Source of the DNA: Xanthomonas sp. NCPPB 1128
GTDB lineage: Bacteria; Pseudomonadota; Gammaproteobacteria; Xanthomonadales; Xanthomonadaceae
Reading direction: 5' to 3'
Assembly (NCBI RefSeq): GCF_001043115.1
Contig: NZ_LFME01000035.1
Coordinates: forward strand, 1 to 50,701
DNA: 50,701 nucleotides
Below, piece after piece: positions 32,441 to 39,694 of this stretch. The translations under genes were made by a program, and so were the position numbers. The stretch's first letter is position 1. Each line of letters begins with the position of its first letter. The notes beneath the pieces were generated by a model. The model worked only from the letters and a program-made list of their open reading frames with translations, ran no database searches and was not told where the DNA came from.

Positions 32441-33103
32441 TCAGCGGTCCTCGCGGTCCTGGCTGATGCGCGCCAGGGCCGCATCGTAGCGCGGCGCCAG
32501 GTCGTCGATGCGGTCCAGTTCCATGCCCAGGTCGTGCACGCGGCCGTCGCGCAGGCTGTAGACCCAGCCGTGCACGGTCAGTTCCTGGCCGCGCGCCCAG
32601 GCGTCGAGCACGATCGAAGTGCGGCTGACGTTGACCACCTGCTCGAGGACGTTGAGCTCGCACAGGCGCGCATGCTGCACGTTGAGCTCGCCGGCCTGCT
32701 GCAGGCAGTGCTCGTGCTTCTCGGCCACGTCGGTGACGTGGCGGATCCAGTTGTCGACCAGACCCAGCCGCGCGCGGGTCAGGCCGGCGTGCACGCCGCC
32801 GCAGCCGTAGTGGCCGACCACCAGGATGTGCCGCACCTTCAGCACCTCGACCGCGAACTGGATCACCGACAGGCAGTTGAGGTCGGTGTGCACGACCACG
32901 TTGGCGATGTTGCGGTGGACGAACACCTCGCCCGGCGCCATGTCGATGATCTGGTTCGCCGGCACCCGCGAATCGGAACACCCGATCCATAGGTATTCGG
33001 GGGTCTGTTGCGTGGACAGGCGGCTGAAGAACTCGGGATCCTCGCGATTGATGCGTTCGGACCAGGAGCGGTTGTTGTCCAGGAGTTGCGCGATTTTGCT
33101 CAT
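32441..33103 (-). CDS. can: Beta-class carbonic anhydrase
   Basis: A 220-residue cytosolic zinc enzyme that hydrates CO2 to bicarbonate. Zinc and active-site residues match E. coli Can exactly in position: C42, D44 and R46 in CSDSR, H98 and C101 in GHYGCGG. The length (220) equals that of E. coli Can. ATG 33103; an AATAAT about 11 bases before the start may be a -10 element, giving a very short leader. It is the first gene of the minus-strand run that includes haaO, but need not share its function. Confidence 0.97.
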
Positions 33104-33271: not shown

Positions 33272-33811
33272 ATGGCCGACTTCAACGCATTCTTTCCGAC
33301 CCTGCTCAAGCACGAGGGCGGCTTCGTCAACGATCCGGTGGACCCGGGCGGCGCCACCAACAAGGGCATCACCCTGGCGACGTTCCGCATTTACGCCAAG
33401 AGCCTGCTGCAACTGGAGCCGACCCTGGACAACCTGCGTGCGCTCACCGACGCGCAGGCGGTGGTGATCTACAAGACCTGCTACTGGAATGCGGTGCACG
33501 GCGACGAGATCGCGCTGCAGCCGCTGGCCAACATCCTGTTCGACTTCCAGGTCAATGCCGGCAACAACGCCATCAAGCTGCTGCAGCGCGTGCTCAACGC
33601 GCAGACCGCGACGCTGAAGCTGCCGGAGGAGGGCAAGCTCGGCCCGGCCACCCTGGCCGCGCTGAAGGCGGCGGACCAGCGCGATCTGTACGCGCGCTAC
33701 AAGCAGGGCCGGCGCGATTACTACCAGCGCCTGGTCGCGGCCAGGCCGCCGCTGGCCAAGTTCCTCAAGGGCTGGCTGGCGCGCACCGATTCCTTTCCCG
33801 ACCTGAGCTGA
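33272..33811 (+). CDS. GH108-type N-acetylmuramidase with peptidoglycan-binding domain
   Basis: A 179-residue lysozyme-like protein. The catalytic Glu is in LLKHEGGFVNDP (E15), followed by GGATNKGIT, the GH108 signature. The second half (LFDFQVNAGNNAIKLLQRVL) is a PG-binding-3 domain. Such enzymes are phage endolysins or cell-wall hydrolases (ZliS-like) that cut the glycan strand. No signal peptide is seen, so it needs a holin-like route, a secretion system or lysis to reach the wall. The start has a strong GGAGGA. It heads a set of unusual genes on the same strand, but a hairpin at 33840-33860 could separate it from them. Confidence 0.88.
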   Translation: MADFNAFFPTLLKHEGGFVNDPVDPGGATNKGITLATFRIYAKSLLQLEPTLDNLRALTDAQAVVIYKTCYWNAVHGDEIALQPLANILFDFQVNAGNNAIKLLQRVLNAQTATLKLPEEGKLGPATLAALKAADQRDLYARYKQGRRDYYQRLVAARPPLAKFLKGWLARTDSFPDLS

Positions 33812-33839
33812 GCGCGCGTGCGGCGCATGCCGCCGATCC

Positions 33840-33860
33840 GCCGCCGTCGCCGACGGCGGC
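33840..33860 (+). terminator. Hairpin after the muramidase gene
   Basis: A 9-bp stem GCCGCCGTC/GACGGCGGC with loop GCC, followed by CTTCTTTCC. It lies 28 bases beyond the muramidase stop and 21 bases before the next start, so it could act as an attenuator between the two. Confidence 0.6.
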
Positions 33861-33881
33861 CTTCTTTCCCCAGGAGCGACC

Positions 33882-34460
33882 ATGGCTGGACCGACCGCAT
33901 TGAACGACCTGATCGAGGCGCTGGCCGGCGCGGTGATCGAGGCGCAGGACCGCATCGAGCAGCACCAGATGGCCAACCTCGGCGACTACTTCGACGAGTT
34001 CCACCGGCCCAAGAGCGTGATCATCCGCCTGCCGTCGCAGCATCCGCAGGCCGCCGAAGGCGACGAGGACTACTACCGCGCGCCGCTGTTGCCGCTGGTC
34101 TCGACCAACGTGCTGCGGATCAAGGATGTGGAGATCAGCTTCGATGCGCAGCTCGGCGACCTCGGCGGCCTGCAGTCGGCCGACGGCTTCTTCGCGCCGG
34201 AGCCGCCCGGCCCGAAAGCGGCCTGGCAGGCCAAGCGCACCGCCACCCGTTCCAGCGTGCGTGTGGATACCAGCGCCAGCGCGCGGAGCCAGCGCCAGAG
34301 TGCCGTCCACGTCGTGCTGCGCGTGGAGGGGACCGAACCGACTGACGGAGCGGCCAGATTGCTCAACCATCTGGCGCAGACGCAGGGCGTGTTCAAGACG
34401 GTCACGGCCGACAAGCCGGACGTCGCGGGCACGGACGATGTAACCAATCCCACCAACTAA
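33882..34460 (+). CDS. DUF2589-like protein, first copy
   Basis: A 192-residue protein of unknown function. The N-terminal helix (LNDLIEALAGAVIEAQDRIE) is followed by a beta region. APLLPLVSTNVLRIKDVEISFDAQLG here aligns with VPLLAIVNVPSLSIQTVDITFDMEV of the next gene, and RLLNHLAQTQG with RVMDILQSSV, so the two are paralogues. The middle (residues 95-125) is Pro/Ala-rich. Neither signal peptide nor membrane segment. It has CAGGAG before ATG 33882 and lies 12 bases before the second copy. Confidence 0.8.
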   Translation: MAGPTALNDLIEALAGAVIEAQDRIEQHQMANLGDYFDEFHRPKSVIIRLPSQHPQAAEGDEDYYRAPLLPLVSTNVLRIKDVEISFDAQLGDLGGLQSADGFFAPEPPGPKAAWQAKRTATRSSVRVDTSASARSQRQSAVHVVLRVEGTEPTDGAARLLNHLAQTQGVFKTVTADKPDVAGTDDVTNPTN

Positions 34461-34472
34461 GGAGTCACTGCA

Positions 34473-35102
34473 ATGGCTGACGAACTCGTCAACATGTCAA
34501 GTCAATTCAAGGGTCTGCCGATGGGCGACCTGATCGGCGGCCCGCTGGATGCGGCCTGCGACGCGCAGGTCAAGCTGGCCCGCGCCACCGCCGATTTCAT
34601 CCGCGTCATCGGCTTCCTGCCGCCCGATGCCGGCGGCAACGATCCGCAGGCGACCGGCGCCACCCGCACCGCCAGCTTCCGCTTCAAGCGGCCGGTCGAC
34701 GACCCGACCACCGCCGGCGGCATCGCCGAGGAGGAGGTCGAACTGGAAGTGCCGCTGCTGGCCATCGTCAACGTGCCCAGCCTGAGCATCCAGACCGTGG
34801 ACATCACCTTCGACATGGAAGTGAAGTCGTCCTTCTCCGAGAAGTCCTCCACCGATGCCTCGGCGTCGCTGTCGGCGGACATGGAATTCGGCTGGGGCAT
34901 GTTCAAGGCCAAGGTGCACATCCAGGGTTCGGTCGCCACGCACAAGGAAAACACGCGCAGCTCCGACAACTCGGCCAAGTACCACGTCGCCGTGCACGCC
35001 GCCGACAAGGGCATGCCGGAAGGGCTGGCGCGGGTGATGGACATCCTGCAGAGCTCGGTGGCGCCGCGCAAGGTCGGCGCGCCGGTGCCGGTCGCCGCGT
35101 AA
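34473..35102 (+). CDS. DUF2589 domain protein, second copy
   Basis: A 209-residue protein matching the DUF2589 family: MGDLIGGPLDAACDAQVKLA and TADFIRVIGF near the start, then VPLLAIVNVPSLSIQTVDIT, FDMEV, and a C-terminal MFKAKVHIQGSVA strand. The family is described in bacteria and archaea without a function. The pattern of one amphipathic helix followed by about eight beta-strands suggests a beta-sandwich that may assemble into larger structures; this is inference. Typical strong ribosome binding site (AAGGAG). It belongs to a compact set of genes with the first copy and those downstream. Confidence 0.9.
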   Translation: MADELVNMSSQFKGLPMGDLIGGPLDAACDAQVKLARATADFIRVIGFLPPDAGGNDPQATGATRTASFRFKRPVDDPTTAGGIAEEEVELEVPLLAIVNVPSLSIQTVDITFDMEVKSSFSEKSSTDASASLSADMEFGWGMFKAKVHIQGSVATHKENTRSSDNSAKYHVAVHAADKGMPEGLARVMDILQSSVAPRKVGAPVPVAA

Positions 35103-35148
35103 GTCCGTAGCGGCCTGTTGAACCATCTCGTCGGGGGACTCGTCAACG

Positions 35149-35409
35149 ATGTTCGACCTTACCGAAGTCAAGTTCGTCAAGCGGGTCGTGGTCGGTAGCG
35201 ACAACCCGACGCAGATGCAGTCGCCCGAGCAGATCGAGGCGGCACGGGCCTTGCTCAACCGCTGCCTGAGCGATTCGCCGAAGGGCGCGATCATCGGCAC
35301 CGAAAAGAATTTCGCCGTGCTGCAGATCGGCGAGCACCAGGTGGTGATGCAGTGGCTGTGCTACCACGTGGGCTTCCCGCGCAAGCCCGGCTGGCTGAAG
35401 GACGACTGA
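35149..35409 (+). CDS. Small protein of unknown function
   Basis: An 86-residue protein I do not recognise. It has a predicted alpha/beta pattern (FVKRVVVGSDN, AARALLNRCLS, AIIGTEKNFAVLQIGEHQVVMQWLCYHVGF). The mixed helix and strands with two Cys suggest a small compact domain without membrane segments. The stop overlaps the next gene's start by one base (TGATG at 35407-35411), so the two are translated together. Position 46 bases after the DUF2589 gene ties it to the cluster. Confidence 0.8.
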   Translation: MFDLTEVKFVKRVVVGSDNPTQMQSPEQIEAARALLNRCLSDSPKGAIIGTEKNFAVLQIGEHQVVMQWLCYHVGFPRKPGWLKDD

Positions 35410-35867
35410 TGGCCAGGCTGCGTTGCGAGTTCGACCTGTTCCTGCAGGGGCTGTCGGCGGCCTTGCTGGATGCGCAGCGGCGCTGCCGCGCGCGTCACGC
35501 ACAGGCATTGCGCGCGTGTTTCGGCGCGGGCGAGACGTTGCAGGTGGAGACGGACGCGGCCGAGCCGCCGTCGCTGCAAATCCCGTTGTGGGAGCTGCGT
35601 GCATGGCAGTTGCCGCAGATCGGCGAACTGGCCCTGGCCTTCGACGTCGAACTGGACGTGGTGGACGCACCGAACGAGGCGCCGCGCCTGCTGCTGCAGG
35701 TGCAGCCGCGCCGGCCACGGCGGCCCGGCCACCGCTTGCAGATCCTGTTCCGCGGCACCCACACCCCGGTCGGCGAGGTGCTGTTCGATGGCCAGCGGCT
35801 GAAGCTGTGGCACCTGTCCGATGCGCCCGCTCCGCACGATCCCGCCGAGGAGACCGCACATGCGTAG
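35409..35867 (+). CDS. Divergent DUF2589-like protein
   Basis: A 152-residue protein. It begins with a helix (FDLFLQGLSAALLDAQRRCR) followed by LQIPLWELRAWQLPQIGELA and FDVELD. This matches the order helix, PLxxI...L.I...I.FD.E of the two genes upstream, so I read it as a third, diverged member; overall identity is low and no family assignment is claimed. The C-terminal half ends HRLQILFRGTHTPVGEVLFD. The ATG at 35409 overlaps the preceding stop, and its own end overlaps the next gene by 8 bases. Confidence 0.7.
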   Translation: MARLRCEFDLFLQGLSAALLDAQRRCRARHAQALRACFGAGETLQVETDAAEPPSLQIPLWELRAWQLPQIGELALAFDVELDVVDAPNEAPRLLLQVQPRRPRRPGHRLQILFRGTHTPVGEVLFDGQRLKLWHLSDAPAPHDPAEETAHA

Positions 35868-36048
35868 ACACGGCTTCATCCTGTCCCGGCACGACACCGA
35901 CCTGTGGTGCCGAGAACTGCACATCGACCTGCGCTCGCTGGCCCGCGCGCAACGGCTGCGCCGGCGTCGACGCCGGGCGCTGTGGCTGCTTGCCGTACTG
36001 TGCCTGGTGGCGGCCGTCCTGGCGCTGATCCGGTTCGGTCTGTCCTGA
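35860..36048 (+). CDS. Small single-pass membrane protein
   Basis: A 62-residue protein. It has an Arg-rich cytosolic face ([14 protein letters not shown]) followed by one transmembrane helix (LWLLAVLCLVAAVLALIRF) and a short tail. With the positive charge before the helix, the N-terminus should remain in the cytoplasm. It overlaps the end of the preceding gene by 8 bases. I know no relative. In the cluster it might anchor a complex at the inner membrane. Confidence 0.7.
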   Translation: MRRHGFILSRHDTDLWCRELHIDLRSLARAQRLRRRRRRALWLLAVLCLVAAVLALIRFGLS

Positions 36049-36089
36049 CCGTGCACATCGTTTTCCTTCGTATCCAACAGGAGAGTCGC

Positions 36090-36872
36090 ATGCGTATCCG
36101 TTCGCGTGGTGTTGCGCGTTTCCCGTTCTGGCTGGCGCTGTGCCTGGCCACGCCGTTCGCCGCCGGTGCCGCACCGCAGGCGCCGACGCCTGCTGCACCG
36201 GCCGCAGCGGCCAACGCAGACGCGTTGCCGCCCGGCGAATGGAGCGGCACCCTGGCGCTGGATGCGCAGCGCCTGGCCGCCGTGCGCCTGGTCCAGCGCG
36301 ACGGCAAGGCCAGGCTGATGTTCGGCTCGCCGTTGAACTGCGCCTTGCTGGTCAAGCCGCAACCGGGTGCCGGTTTCGCACTGGAGTCGATCAATGGCGG
36401 CGCCTACTGCGACAAGCTGATGGGCAAGCCGCTGCGCGTGCAGCGCAGCGGCGACGACCTGCGCTTGAACGTCGACGGCAAGGATTTGCCGGTGGTGCTG
36501 CACAGCGATCCGGGCCAGCCTAGCCCGCTGCAGGGCACGTGGCGCGGGGTGACGCGTCCCGACTACAGCAATAGGGGCGTCGCTGTGCAACTGAGTGTCG
36601 CGGCGACCCCTCAGGCCCCCGGTAGCGCCACGGTGCAGCTGCGCTACGGCGCGCCGCGCGAGTGCAGGGTGCAGGGTCGCTACCTCGGCATGCGCGAAGG
36701 AGACGCGCTGTACGCGTTGGACATGAACGATCAGGGTGTCTGCACGCGTTTGAGCGACGGCCAGCTGACACTGCGCGCAAGGCCGGACGGCGAGCTCGAA
36801 CTGCAGACCGTTGACGGCGGCGGGAAGGGGCGGGAAAGCGCGCTGTTGGAACGCGTCCCCGCCAGCCCGTAA
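36090..36872 (+). CDS. Secreted protein of unknown function
   Basis: A 260-residue protein with a cleavable signal peptide: MRIRSRGVARFPFWLALCLA, with likely cleavage after PFAAGA. The next 30 residues are Pro/Ala-rich. A domain of about 200 residues follows, strongly beta (GEWSGTLALDAQRLAAVRLV, GTWRGVTRPDYSNRGVAV), in two similar halves each beginning with G.W.G. Each half has a pair of Cys (LNCALLV, GGAYCDK; PRECRV, DQGVCTR), suggesting disulphides in the periplasm. I know no family. ATG 36090 with CAGGAG. It could be the periplasmic part of the cluster. Confidence 0.75.
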   Translation: MRIRSRGVARFPFWLALCLATPFAAGAAPQAPTPAAPAAAANADALPPGEWSGTLALDAQRLAAVRLVQRDGKARLMFGSPLNCALLVKPQPGAGFALESINGGAYCDKLMGKPLRVQRSGDDLRLNVDGKDLPVVLHSDPGQPSPLQGTWRGVTRPDYSNRGVAVQLSVAATPQAPGSATVQLRYGAPRECRVQGRYLGMREGDALYALDMNDQGVCTRLSDGQLTLRARPDGELELQTVDGGGKGRESALLERVPASP

Positions 36873-36920
36873 TCCGCCGCGCGGACGCGCCGGCCCTCGT
36901 TTCCATCCAGGAGTCGTGCG

Positions 36921-37967
36921 ATGAACTTCGTCTGGATCAAGACGCTGGCCGGCGCCGCGTGGCGCCGGCTGATCGCGGCCCGCCGGGCCGGGCCGCGGCT
37001 GCCGCCGCCGCCCATCCTGCCGCAGTTGCGCGCCGAGTGCGAAGCGATGGCGCGCTATGCGCTGGAACACGGCATGGCAGTGCCGCCGGAGTTGATCGCC
37101 CGCCTGTCGGCGCTGTTGGGCGCCCGCGTGCCGGACGCCGATGGCGGCGAGATCGAGGTGCACTCGCACGAACTGGCGGTCACCCACCGGCGACTGGCGC
37201 AACTGATCCGCCCGGCGACGCCGCAGGCGGTGTTCCTGCTCGATGCCGAACGTCGCCGCCCGCACTGGGCGACACTGCTCGGCCCGCTGCCGCTGGTGCG
37301 CGCACTGACCACGACCTCGCTGCTGTTCTTGTTCGCGGTGGTGGCGACGGCCCTGTCCAGCAAGGTCAGCGCGGACAACGTGCGCCTGGGGTTCCTGGAT
37401 TCCTCGGGCAGCGTGCTGCTGTGGAACGCGCTGTTCCTGCTGTTCTGCGCCGGCCTGGGGGCCTCGTTCTCCTCGCTGTTCCAGGTGCACCGCTATGTCG
37501 CCGACGCCAGCTACGACCCCAAGTACGACGCGTCCTACGGCGCGCGCATGATCCTGGGCCTGATCGCCGGGCTGATCCTGGTCGAAGTGCTGCCGCCGGA
37601 TCTGTTCGAAAGCGGCAGCATGCGCAGTTTCGGCAAGCCGACCCTGGCGATGCTGGGGGGCTTCTCGGCCACCGCGGTGTACCGTCTGCTGCAACGCCTG
37701 GTCGATTTGATGGAGACACTGGTGCGTGGCGACACCTCGGCGCAGGCGCAGGCATCGCTGGAAGTGCAGCGCGCCAGCAACGACACCGAGCGCATGCGCT
37801 GGCAGGGCGAACTGGCCGCGCAGTTGATGACCTTGCAACAGTCCATCGAGGCCGGCACGCCGCCGGCCGCGATCCAGCAGCGGCTCGCCGAGTTCGCCCG
37901 CGCGATGCTGCAGGTGGAGGCCGCCCGGTTGCCACCACCACCGCCGCCAACCGCTGCTGCGGAATGA
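36921..37967 (+). CDS. Multi-pass membrane protein of unknown function
   Basis: A 348-residue protein. The N-terminal 125 residues are soluble and helical (LPQLRAECEAMARYALEHGM). Then come three hydrophobic segments at about 126-147 (ALTTTSLLFLFAVVATALS), 165-184 (LLWNALFLLFCAGLGASF) and 208-225 (MILGLIAGLILVEVLPPD). A hydrophobic stretch near 240-255 is weaker. The last 90 residues are a coiled-coil-like helix (LEVQRASNDTERMRWQGELA) ending in a poly-proline tail. It has the look of a scaffold or channel protein, but no family is recognisable. It closes the plus-strand cluster. Confidence 0.78.
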   Translation: MNFVWIKTLAGAAWRRLIAARRAGPRLPPPPILPQLRAECEAMARYALEHGMAVPPELIARLSALLGARVPDADGGEIEVHSHELAVTHRRLAQLIRPATPQAVFLLDAERRRPHWATLLGPLPLVRALTTTSLLFLFAVVATALSSKVSADNVRLGFLDSSGSVLLWNALFLLFCAGLGASFSSLFQVHRYVADASYDPKYDASYGARMILGLIAGLILVEVLPPDLFESGSMRSFGKPTLAMLGGFSATAVYRLLQRLVDLMETLVRGDTSAQAQASLEVQRASNDTERMRWQGELAAQLMTLQQSIEAGTPPAAIQQRLAEFARAMLQVEAARLPPPPPPTAAAE

Positions 37968-38289: not shown

Positions 38290-39000
38290 ATGAACACACG
38301 TATCGTGATTGCCGCCGAACGCAGCATCGTGCTGGAGGGCATGGTGGCCCTGTTGAACAACACGCCGGACATCGACGTGGTCGGCCATGCGGTCGATGGA
38401 CTGGAGTGCGTGCAACTGGTGACCCGACGGCAGCCGGACGTCGTGCTGATGGACGTGATGCTGCCTGGCCTCAACGGCATCGAGGCCACCCGCCGGCTGC
38501 TGCAGCGCAGCCCGCGCAGTAAGGCGATCTGCATCGCCGCGTCCGATGCCGCGGCCAATGTGCGCGCGGCCATCGACGCCGGCGCCAAGGGCTACCTGGC
38601 GCGCAACAGCACCTTCCATGAATTGCTGCGCGCGATCCAGCAGGTCGGCAACGACCAGCTGTACATCAGCCCGCAACTGTCGCAGTCCCTGGTCAGCGAG
38701 TACCGCTGTCCGCCCGGCGACGCCGTCTCCGCCTACACCCTGCTGACCTCGCGTGAACGTGAGATCGTGCAGTTGCTGTCCGAGGGGTTGTCGACCAAGG
38801 AGATCGCCGCGCGCCTGCACATCAGCGTCAAGACCATCGGCACCCATCGCGAGCACATCATGCTCAAGCTGGGCATGCAGAGCATCGCGCAATTGACCCG
38901 CTATGCGATCCGAGAAGGCCTGTCGCCGCTGGAAGGGGGACGAGCCAGTGCGCGCCGTGCCGAGCACGACCGGCAGGGACCGGCCAGCCGTTGCGGGTGA
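38290..39000 (+). CDS. NarL/FixJ-type response regulator with degenerate receiver
   Basis: A 236-residue two-domain regulator. The receiver domain (1-120) keeps the phospho-acceptor D55 (VVLMDVMLPGLNG). The first acidic pocket is AE (residues 9-10) where most have DD, and the conserved Lys near the end is R105 (GYLAR). The C-terminal LuxR-type helix-turn-helix is complete (LTSREREIVQLLSEGLSTKE, IAARLHISVKTIGTHREHIM). It should bind DNA, but phosphorylation may be weak or unneeded. No histidine kinase is nearby. The last 25 residues are Arg/Ala-rich and unlike the family. AGGTAG precedes ATG 38290. Confidence 0.9.
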   Translation: MNTRIVIAAERSIVLEGMVALLNNTPDIDVVGHAVDGLECVQLVTRRQPDVVLMDVMLPGLNGIEATRRLLQRSPRSKAICIAASDAAANVRAAIDAGAKGYLARNSTFHELLRAIQQVGNDQLYISPQLSQSLVSEYRCPPGDAVSAYTLLTSREREIVQLLSEGLSTKEIAARLHISVKTIGTHREHIMLKLGMQSIAQLTRYAIREGLSPLEGGRASARRAEHDRQGPASRCG

Positions 39001-39073: not shown

Positions 39074-39694
39074 TCAGTCCGGACGTCGGGCGCGCATCAG
39101 CGCCGCGACGGCCTGCGCGCCTGCGTCGGCCTGGGCCTGCAGCGCTTCGCGCACCGCGGCCTGGTTCGCCGGCGGATGGTTCTGGCTGAGCTTGAACTTC
39201 AGCTCGATCCGCTCGACCTGGAAGCGGAAACCGACGATGCCGCGCAACTGGCGCCGGTGCGCGTCGTTGTCCGGCTCGTAGCGCCAGTCGCTGCCCAATG
39301 CGCGCTCGTGGCGTTCGCTCAGCCGCGCCACCACATCGGCCAGCATGGCCTCGTCGTCGCTGGGCTGCAGCTGCCCGTGCAGATGCGCGGTGGCGTAGTT
39401 CCAGGTCGGCACCCGCGCCATCGCTTCCTTGTCCGGATACCAGCCCGGCGAGACGTAGGCGTGCGGGCCGTGCACGATCAGCAAGGCCGGCCCGGCATGC
39501 CGCGCCTGCGGGTTGGCCCGCGACCAATGGCCTTCGACCAGGATGCGTTCACCGTCGCGCCGGTACAGCACCGGCAACGGCGTGGCGCAGGGCAGGCCGT
39601 CGGCGACGGTGACCAGGGTGGCGAACGGGTTGTCTGCGATCAGTACGTCGAGCGCGCCCAGGTCGTGTTCGGCGAAGGCGGGCGGAACATGCAT
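39074..39694 (-). CDS. FMN-binding PaiB-type protein
   Basis: A 206-residue protein of the PaiB family (FMN-binding split barrel). Hallmarks are LIADNPFATLVTVADG near residue 18, ILVEGHWSRANPQ (about 51-63), YVSPGWYPDKEAMARVPTWN (about 79-98) and the C-terminal VGFRFQVERIELKFKLSQN. In Bacillus, PaiB was described as a negative regulator of sporulation and protease genes, but the fold suggests an FMN- or haem-binding oxidoreductase, and the cellular role here is unknown. ATG 39694. It is convergent with the response-regulator gene and may share a transcript with the small gene upstream. Confidence 0.9.
   Translation of the reverse strand: MHVPPAFAEHDLGALDVLIADNPFATLVTVADGLPCATPLPVLYRRDGERILVEGHWSRANPQARHAGPALLIVHGPHAYVSPGWYPDKEAMARVPTWNYATAHLHGQLQPSDDEAMLADVVARLSERHERALGSDWRYEPDNDAHRRQLRGIVGFRFQVERIELKFKLSQNHPPANQAAVREALQAQADAGAQAVAALMRARRPD

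Follow-up and report, generated by a model that had tools for sequence, protein, structure and literature searches.

A conserved DUF2589 gene core with exchangeable phage-type partners: a candidate envelope-release module in Xanthomonas

The window analysed here, a stretch of 50,701 nucleotides from Xanthomonas sp. NCPPB 1128 (assembly GCF_001043115.1, contig NZ_LFME01000035.1, positions 1 to 50,701), carries a run of nine genes on the + strand in which two proteins of the DUF2589 family (PF11655), entered in Pfam as a family of unknown function, stand beside a muramidase, a small partner protein, membrane and secreted proteins and a response regulator. An initial annotation of this DNA, made from its letters, had described the first eight genes as a cluster, and all eight reading frames are present on the + strand at the coordinates below. 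We call gene 2 DUF2589-B (B), gene 3 DUF2589-A (A), gene 4 p86 and gene 5 p152.

33272..33811, + strand: gene 1, GH108 muramidase of phage-endolysin type, 179 residues, relative of TtsA/Sen1395 (Pfam, PHROG and PDB profile matches)
33882..34460, + strand: gene 2, DUF2589-B, 192 residues (PF11655, E 2.6e-27, 96.5 bits)
34473..35102, + strand: gene 3, DUF2589-A, 209 residues (PF11655, E 3.2e-50, 170.9 bits)
35149..35409, + strand: gene 4, p86, core partner of 86 residues (present in 95 of the 105 A loci described below; no Pfam family)
35409..35867, + strand: gene 5, p152, third DUF2589-like protein, 152 residues (hhalign to the B family; below Pfam detection)
35860..36048, + strand: gene 6, small protein with a single transmembrane (TM) segment, 62 residues (hydrophobic segment 43-61, Arg run ahead of it)
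36090..36872, + strand: gene 7, secreted protein of two tandem domains with a conserved Cys pair, 260 residues (signal-peptide-like start; domain profile)
36921..37967, + strand: gene 8, membrane protein of 348 residues, candidate holin-slot protein (three hydrophobic segments)
38290..39000, + strand: gene 9, LuxR/NarL-type response regulator (Response_reg 1.3e-19, GerE 1.4e-18)
32441..33103, - strand: left flank, outside the unit, carbonic-anhydrase-like gene (named by eye; match in 20 of 20 same-genus genomes)
39074..39694, - strand: right flank, outside the unit, FMN-binding/PaiB-like gene (named by eye; adjoins the left flank where the unit is missing)

Profile searches uphold the make-up that the initial annotation had proposed. 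Gene 1, taken there for a GH108-type muramidase, matches Pfam Glyco_hydro_108 (4.6e-26) and PG_binding_3 (5.3e-13). The two supposed DUF2589 paralogues, genes 2 and 3, score far above the Pfam cut-off of PF11655, which is 23 bits, and no further PF11655 match was found by Pfam in the whole genome. Gene 5, put forward as a third DUF2589-like protein, is missed by Pfam and is linked by hhalign to the B family (97.1%, E 6e-11); B was absent among the 28 seed sequences of p152. The small Arg-rich membrane protein (gene 6) has one hydrophobic segment behind an Arg run, the secreted disulphide-type protein (gene 7) a signal-peptide-like start and a Cys pair conserved in its family, and the multi-pass membrane protein (gene 8) three hydrophobic segments. 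At the scale used for these three, genes 1-5 show no hydrophobic segment, the highest value being 1.45 for gene 3. The genes said to overlap or touch from 35149 to 36048 do so, with 1 base shared by genes 4 and 5 and 8 bases by genes 5 and 6. No Pfam family above cut-off was found for genes 4-8. In the gene 7 protein, the single domain of a secreted family is duplicated in tandem (residues ~17-123, E 3.9e-17, and 145-239, E 7.7e-13). The absence of phage structural genes, also noted initially, holds for the eight genes scanned: the GH108 protein alone matches PHROGs at E <=0.1, and neither a structural gene nor a spanin is found among the eight in that database. PADLOC models matched none of the eight proteins (0 families at E 0.01).

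In Xanthomonas, these neighbouring genes form one inherited unit of nine, kept and lost together. We compared 20 genomes of the genus, the window's own and 19 relatives. Among the relatives, nine have two PF11655 matches and one (G010) has a fragment. The search for the same gene order, by which the coherence of the set was to be judged, found all eight genes in order in nine of the nine relatives with two matches, at identities of 49-100%. G010 holds a remnant made of pieces of A and p152, gene 6, gene 7 and the tail of the regulator. Nine congeners lack the unit. Their left and right flank genes adjoin, with 0.15 to 1.2 kb between them, and searches of this interval at E 1e-3 found none of genes 2-8; in one of these genomes (G016, locus L180), it still holds a C-terminal fragment of gene 1 and a piece of the regulator. 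Gene 8 is confined to the ten genomes with an intact unit, the window's own and nine others. As the response regulator at 38290-39000 is missing from eight of the nine unit-less congeners, with the remnant in G016 in the ninth, we count it as part of the unit.

Six further Xanthomonas loci carry diverged copies (~35-76% protein identity, with one B piece at 81%), arranged in the same way between the two flank genes and likewise with the regulator. Gene 6 escaped detection in these six, as it did at E 1e-8 in L105, and two matches come in two pieces, B of L094 and the regulator of L097, where B and A are 1.3 kb apart. The GC content is 0.686, against 0.691 for the window. Diverged copies at one site and a GC content near that of the window speak for old vertical inheritance with repeated loss, rather than for a recently arrived mobile element. 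The coherence that the initial annotation had seen in the set is thus borne out by an order kept across Xanthomonas, the diverged loci included, and by a three-gene core that recurs far beyond the genus.

That core was delineated in 105 loci with a relative of A: the best 80 of 256 genome relatives, one viral contig, four plasmid loci and 20 further genome stretches, with a phage-labelled 4-kb record (L030) excluded. The sample is skewed to related genera, Xanthomonas alone contributing 18 loci, and the counts ignore tree shape; at least four pairs of loci are the same contig taken twice (L026/L140, L046/L105, L055/L122, L059/L067), contig ends truncate some loci, L082 contains a masked stretch, and the gene calls in high-GC loci come from a home-made caller and are rough. 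A p86 gene is present in 95 of the 105 loci, in all 95 on the same strand as A and with its centre within 1.3 kb of that of A. In 97, a separate B is encoded on that strand no more than 3.5 kb from A. Lack of p86 marks ten loci: the remnant L049, L086, which is cut by a contig end, the masked L082, and seven whose DUF2589 is more distant (L029, L056-L058, L063-L065). Three of these last (L029, L064 and L065) have a B-like protein of their own, and in Burkholderia the family of the 348-residue protein is nearby. The core was found in other proteobacterial classes, in Verrucomicrobia and in Bacillota, as we take the genera concerned to be placed. Beyond the genus, the core is therefore B, A and p86, and p152-like, small-TM and secreted proteins are recurrent.

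DUF2589 itself occurs in nine of 398 genomes of the window's phylum, its own included (seven clear pairs, one single match and one case of two matches in one frame), and in two of 299 genomes of a Bacillota sample. Exactly two PF11655 matches per whole genome were counted in Lachnospiraceae, Phascolarctobacterium, Prosthecobacter, Helicobacter and Nannocystis (n=5). Protein searches recovered relatives of A in one of 50,697 phage-labelled records and three of 72,556 plasmid records; one viral contig encodes a relative, found in the same alignment as the genome scan. The literature search gave a single mention of DUF2589 within its coverage, which left out most subscription papers and all preprints: PMC3949148 reports DUF2589-related genes AF0414-AF0417 of Archaeoglobus fulgidus as up-regulated on lactate, and these genes take the family beyond bacteria with peptidoglycan. 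No description of the present unit was found within the same coverage. As a separate observation, two Vibrio plasmids carry genes annotated with TcdA/TcdB domains about 5-8 kb from the DUF2589 core (L027 20852-24576, L028 4415-5938), which may be coincidence; the second plasmid also carries a YcaO and ABC-transporter cluster.

The families of A and B are homologous by hhalign (97.8%, E 7.2e-13), and no homology was detected between p152 and the A family (0.7%). Control pairs (p86-A, p86-B, secreted protein-p86, GH108-B and 348-residue protein-B) each stayed at or below 0.5% in profile comparison. The AlphaFold2 model of A, a long helix, six strands and a C-terminal helix, is of low confidence (mean pLDDT 61.6). 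That of p86 is confident (pLDDT 92.7), with a predicted strand-helix-strand-strand fold. No Pfam family was found for p86 itself, and the best match among 76 relatives was at E 0.032. Nor was a confident structural match found. The comparison with dodecin gave E 0.26 and a TM score of 0.36-0.37 in Foldseek (3onr) and 0.3% by profile. By sequence, neither A nor p86 matches a solved structure. With a loose threshold, one hydrophobic segment is flagged in the relatives of A from many loci, and likewise in one B (L089) and one p152 relative (L114).

Next to this constant core, the enzyme changes. In the window, the slot is filled by gene 1, which matches the PHROG endolysins (E 2e-42) and the NCBIfam 'holin-associated N-acetylmuramidase' model (E 1.4e-29, but at 103 bits against a cut-off of 240). 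Its PDB matches are 2nr7 (3.8e-21), 6v40 (3.4e-11), which we take to be TtsA, and 6v3z, Sen1395 (7.3e-11). In the alignment, Glu15, within an EGG motif, and Thr29 coincide with the Glu and Thr of 6v40, and the Asp at its third catalytic position corresponds, in our reading, to Asn20, as in NMB1012. With both the domain and the catalytic Glu in its EGG motif, gene 1 would by its sequence be a GH108 muramidase. It has no signal-like start visible by eye and no hydrophobic segment.

Elsewhere, by Pfam, the slot is held by GH19 in Pseudoduganella, Pseudomonas and Helicobacter (the last just under the cut-off), a PF11860 muramidase in Desulfovibrio, Amidase_3 in one genome, Amidase_2 in Lachnospiraceae and Phascolarctobacterium, and a PG_binding_1 protein in Desulfocurvus, which makes five enzyme families and one type of wall-binding-domain protein on the same strand. 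The enzyme family thus differs between lineages. A scan with eight profile seeds placed a slot member on the same strand, at most 6 kb away, in 75 of the 105 loci (GH108 34, GH19 28, PG-binding 8, PF11860 3, Amidase_3 1, Amidase_2 1; none in 30), the eight PG-binding proteins being known by their wall-binding domain only. After addition of a second Amidase_2 seed, from L131, the count of loci with a wall hydrolase or wall-binding protein rose to 76, all within 4 kb and on the same strand; it is 73 of 101 without the four duplicate contigs, and 34 of 55 by genus-level group. As the profiles were seeded from the same 105 loci, the enrichment is partly a matter of choice, and the control lies in the farther flanks and the opposite strand: in the 1131 kb of flanking sequence at 4-10 kb, the same hydrolase profiles had zero matches on the same strand and a single one on the opposite strand.

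The phage character of these proteins is general among those tested. PHROG endolysin or amidase matches were obtained for seven of seven slot proteins, namely the GH108 of the window, the GH19 of L071, L109 and L141, the PF11860 of L133, the Amidase_2 of L146 and the PG-binding protein of L106, the last through its wall-binding part. Additional genes lie beside the core in some loci: a pesticin-type lysozyme on the opposite strand (L065, 6.7e-46), a patatin phospholipase (1.8e-16) together with a metallo-beta-lactamase-fold protein in Phascolarctobacterium (L131), weak nuclease-like matches in Prosthecobacter and Helicobacter (L128 8.7e-4, L141 0.028, below the Pfam cut-offs) and a weak metallopeptidase match in Sphingomonas (L089, 5.7e-5, below cut-off). 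Upstream of the core, Geotalea encodes a protein of patatin-like appearance by eye (L104 8272-9126).

The membrane partner appears to be exchangeable as well. In Luteibacter, Rhodanobacter and Luteimonas, a small membrane protein is encoded directly after the secreted-protein gene, the place of the 348-residue protein in Xanthomonas. PHROG 2359 'holin' was matched by all four copies tested, three from Luteibacter and one from Luteimonas, at E 4.8e-13 to 5.5e-12. By profile, this holin-like protein is present in 12 loci, and a second small membrane protein adjoins it in the same 12; two copies of the latter gave no family above cut-off (best LPD30, 0.0075). The family of the 348-residue protein occurs in 23 loci, including Burkholderia, Rugamonas, Azospirillum, Methylotenera and Roseateles, and among the 105 loci it and the holin-like pair are mutually exclusive. 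One or the other accompanies 30 of the 34 GH108 loci; two of the four with neither (L086, L147) end soon after A. Rugamonas has a gene for a bestrophin-like membrane protein (L110 13027-13824, 7.2e-43) immediately after that of the 348-residue protein.

Two further components recur around the core. Luteibacter, Rhodanobacter, Luteimonas, Pseudomonas and Rhodospirillales have a small TM protein, similar by eye, flanked by p152 and the secreted protein; in L144, from Rhodocyclaceae, the two appear, again by eye, to be merged into a single protein. As for the secreted family of gene 7, it is found at E <=1e-3 in 56 of the 105 loci, from 21 genus-level groups, with GH108, GH19 and PG-binding lineages alike; in several Deltaproteobacteria, its members have lipoprotein-like starts by eye.

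Relatives of the response regulator are found within 5 kb of A in 39 of the 105 loci, 22 of them outside Xanthomonas (17 Xanthomonas, 10 Luteibacter, 3 Luteimonas, 2 Rhodanobacter and one each in seven other groups). There were 40 regulator matches within 5 kb and one at 5-10 kb, in a similar amount of sequence. When 20 loci were viewed singly, the regulator was present in 19: it follows the unit in Xanthomonas, precedes it in most Luteibacter relatives and lies on the other strand in Roseateles and Methylotenera. Other regulators occur near the core, an AraC-type protein in Pseudomonas, a receiver-PAS protein in a metagenome-assembled genome of a proteobacterium and, in Vibrio sonorensis, a Mor-family transcription activator (L134 11289-11672, Pfam 4.5e-9) encoded just downstream on the other strand. 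Genes that resemble the Mor activator by eye lie near the core in other Vibrionaceae. The response regulator may control the unit, judging from this linkage. Receiver domains usually carry an acidic pair near their start; that of the window's regulator (38290-39000) has Ala-Glu there, by eye, and its phosphorylation may be unusual.

The finding is thus larger than the initial annotation stated, comprising nine genes, a three-gene core that crosses phyla and exchangeable phage-type partners. The closest parallel is type 10 secretion (T10SS). It is described as a tightly regulated pair of a holin and a signal-less peptidoglycan hydrolase (PMC13284979), with or without spanins, derived from phage lysis cassettes and lytic in some reports, non-lytic in others (PMC13284979, PMC10847048). 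The same sources describe such systems in Salmonella (TtsA and ChiH/ChiP), Serratia (ChiWXYZ) and Yersinia entomophaga (YenLC) (PMC13284979, PMC6996933, PMC10847048), TtsA being the muramidase of typhoid toxin release (PMC6996933); Clostridioides is also among the genera listed there. The likeness lies in a signal-less phage-type hydrolase, a GH108 relative of Sen1395 and TtsA, in a regulator linked to the window's locus and, in sister families, in a holin-like protein within the same gene run. The initial annotation had seen no known secretion genes, a statement that does not hold for the muramidase, given its kinship with Sen1395 and the TtsA-type muramidases of type 10 secretion. In contrast to type 10 systems, the unit is built on the B/A/p86 core, unnamed in the T10SS descriptions consulted, its hydrolase family varies by lineage, the window lacks a recognised holin, and PHROGs give no spanin match among the eight genes. 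As no holin is recognised in the window, we say that the unit works like a T10SS, not that it is one. No literature linking Xanthomonas with type 10 secretion and a holin was found in a search whose coverage left out most subscription papers and preprints. Phage lysis cassettes resemble the unit in that several endolysin-type families fill one slot and the membrane partner is exchangeable, but the unit differs from them by its fixed chromosomal site in Xanthomonas, the lack of structural genes among the eight, and the added regulator and DUF2589 core.

The composition of the locus suggests a built-in route for a protein complex out through the cell wall. The reading we favour, at somewhat less than even odds, is that of a conserved, regulator-linked endolysin module, similar to type 10 secretion or to a domesticated lysis cassette, that opens the wall under control and releases a DUF2589 complex. 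The constant DUF2589/p86 set may be the released material or the export machine itself; it shows no signal peptide by eye and is the natural candidate for either role. In such a scheme, a signal sensed by the response regulator would trigger cytosolic production of A, B, p152 and p86, and these might assemble there into an oligomer, tethered to the membrane by the small TM protein. The membrane-slot protein, holin-like in Luteibacter and of 348 residues here, would let the muramidase cross the inner membrane and open the peptidoglycan, the secreted protein would act in the periplasm, and the DUF2589 assembly would then be released or pushed through the envelope. It is tempting to go further and see in A, B, p152 and p86 a previously undescribed export assembly, spread from Proteobacteria to Bacillota and paired with whichever endolysin and membrane partner is at hand, that moves itself or an attached payload across the envelope; this we think possible, although on the unlikely side. 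As for the multi-part envelope machine for assembly, export or lysis initially proposed, the lysis or export option is plausible and favoured because unrelated phage-endolysin-type families fill the enzyme slot and a holin-like protein fills the membrane slot in sister families. The machine, its assembly and its cargo are still conjectural.

Several observations weigh against the favoured reading. With the profiles used, 29 of the 105 loci, including Vibrio, Brevundimonas and Caulobacter, have no hydrolase within 4 kb on the same strand; one of the 29 has a pesticin-type gene on the other strand, some are cut by contig ends, and such loci imply that the core may work without a hydrolase. The holin-like protein is recognised in PHROGs only, with no Pfam or NCBIfam match, genes 6 and 8 of the window match no holin in any of the three databases, and no homology was detected between gene 8 and the holin-like protein (3.3% in profile comparison). 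The 348-residue family is present in two of the 398 genomes of the phylum, the window's own and one without DUF2589. An assembly is a guess given the low-confidence model of A, and the exit of A or B from the cell is something that the reading presumes. Moreover, the logic of a wall enzyme would not apply in an archaeon. Yet DUF2589 occurs in one, by the mention in PMC3949148.

The alternative that survives best, which we nevertheless regard as unlikely, is that the DUF2589/p86 complex is itself a membrane device that forms or gates an inner-membrane lesion for the endolysin, in programmed lysis or a stress response, and carries no cargo. A core that stays constant while the hydrolase and the membrane partner are swapped is what one would expect of a machine, and the long helix and very-low-confidence strand region in the model of A may fold only in an oligomer; the loosely flagged hydrophobic segment of A relatives in many loci points the same way. 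However, the B, p86 and p152 of the window have no hydrophobic segment and A does not exceed 1.45, even if the B of L089 and the p152 relative of L114 are flagged. In addition, 12 loci already have holin-like proteins beside the core, and no PADLOC defence model was matched.

Next in rank, and a little less probable again, is that the hydrolases are toxins delivered to other bacteria, with the DUF2589 proteins as carrier and the secreted protein protecting the periplasm of the maker. Wall hydrolases that lack an evident signal and switch family are typical of delivered toxins; the patatin of L131, the weak nuclease-like and metallopeptidase matches (L128, L141, L089) and the opposite-strand lysozyme of L065 would fit as well. 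In contrast, the secreted family is kept across GH108, GH19 and PG-binding lineages, which argues against a dedicated inhibitor of one enzyme, and every slot protein identified by the profiles used is a wall hydrolase or a wall-binding protein. The sheath gene VipB (PF05943) of the type 6 secretion system has 0 matches in the window's genome and was not found in 14 of the 22 carriers tested, that genome included. A holin-like neighbour fits self-opening better than delivery.

A decaying prophage lysis region or another mobile element is very improbable. In its favour, both the hydrolase and the holin-like protein are phage-type proteins, and relatives of A were found on one viral contig, one unannotated phage-labelled metagenome record and three plasmid records, but the other seven genes match no phage family at E <=0.1, the same two genes flank the unit across Xanthomonas even at ~35-76% protein identity, the GC content is close to that of the window, and losses have left remnants in two genomes. 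Equally improbable are ordinary wall-remodelling genes that are neighbours by chance: several genes have no known function and an unrelated role for each is conceivable, but joint presence and loss, kept order and recurrence across phyla already refute a chance neighbourhood.

If the release module that we favour is correct, DUF2589, a family without a described function, would stand at the centre of a widespread system for release or export, with type 10 secretion as one corner of a broader domestication of phage endolysins. A constant core around which unrelated endolysins are swapped would offer a direct experimental handle, and the combination of B, A and p86 would be a search key for such systems that does not require knowledge of the enzyme.

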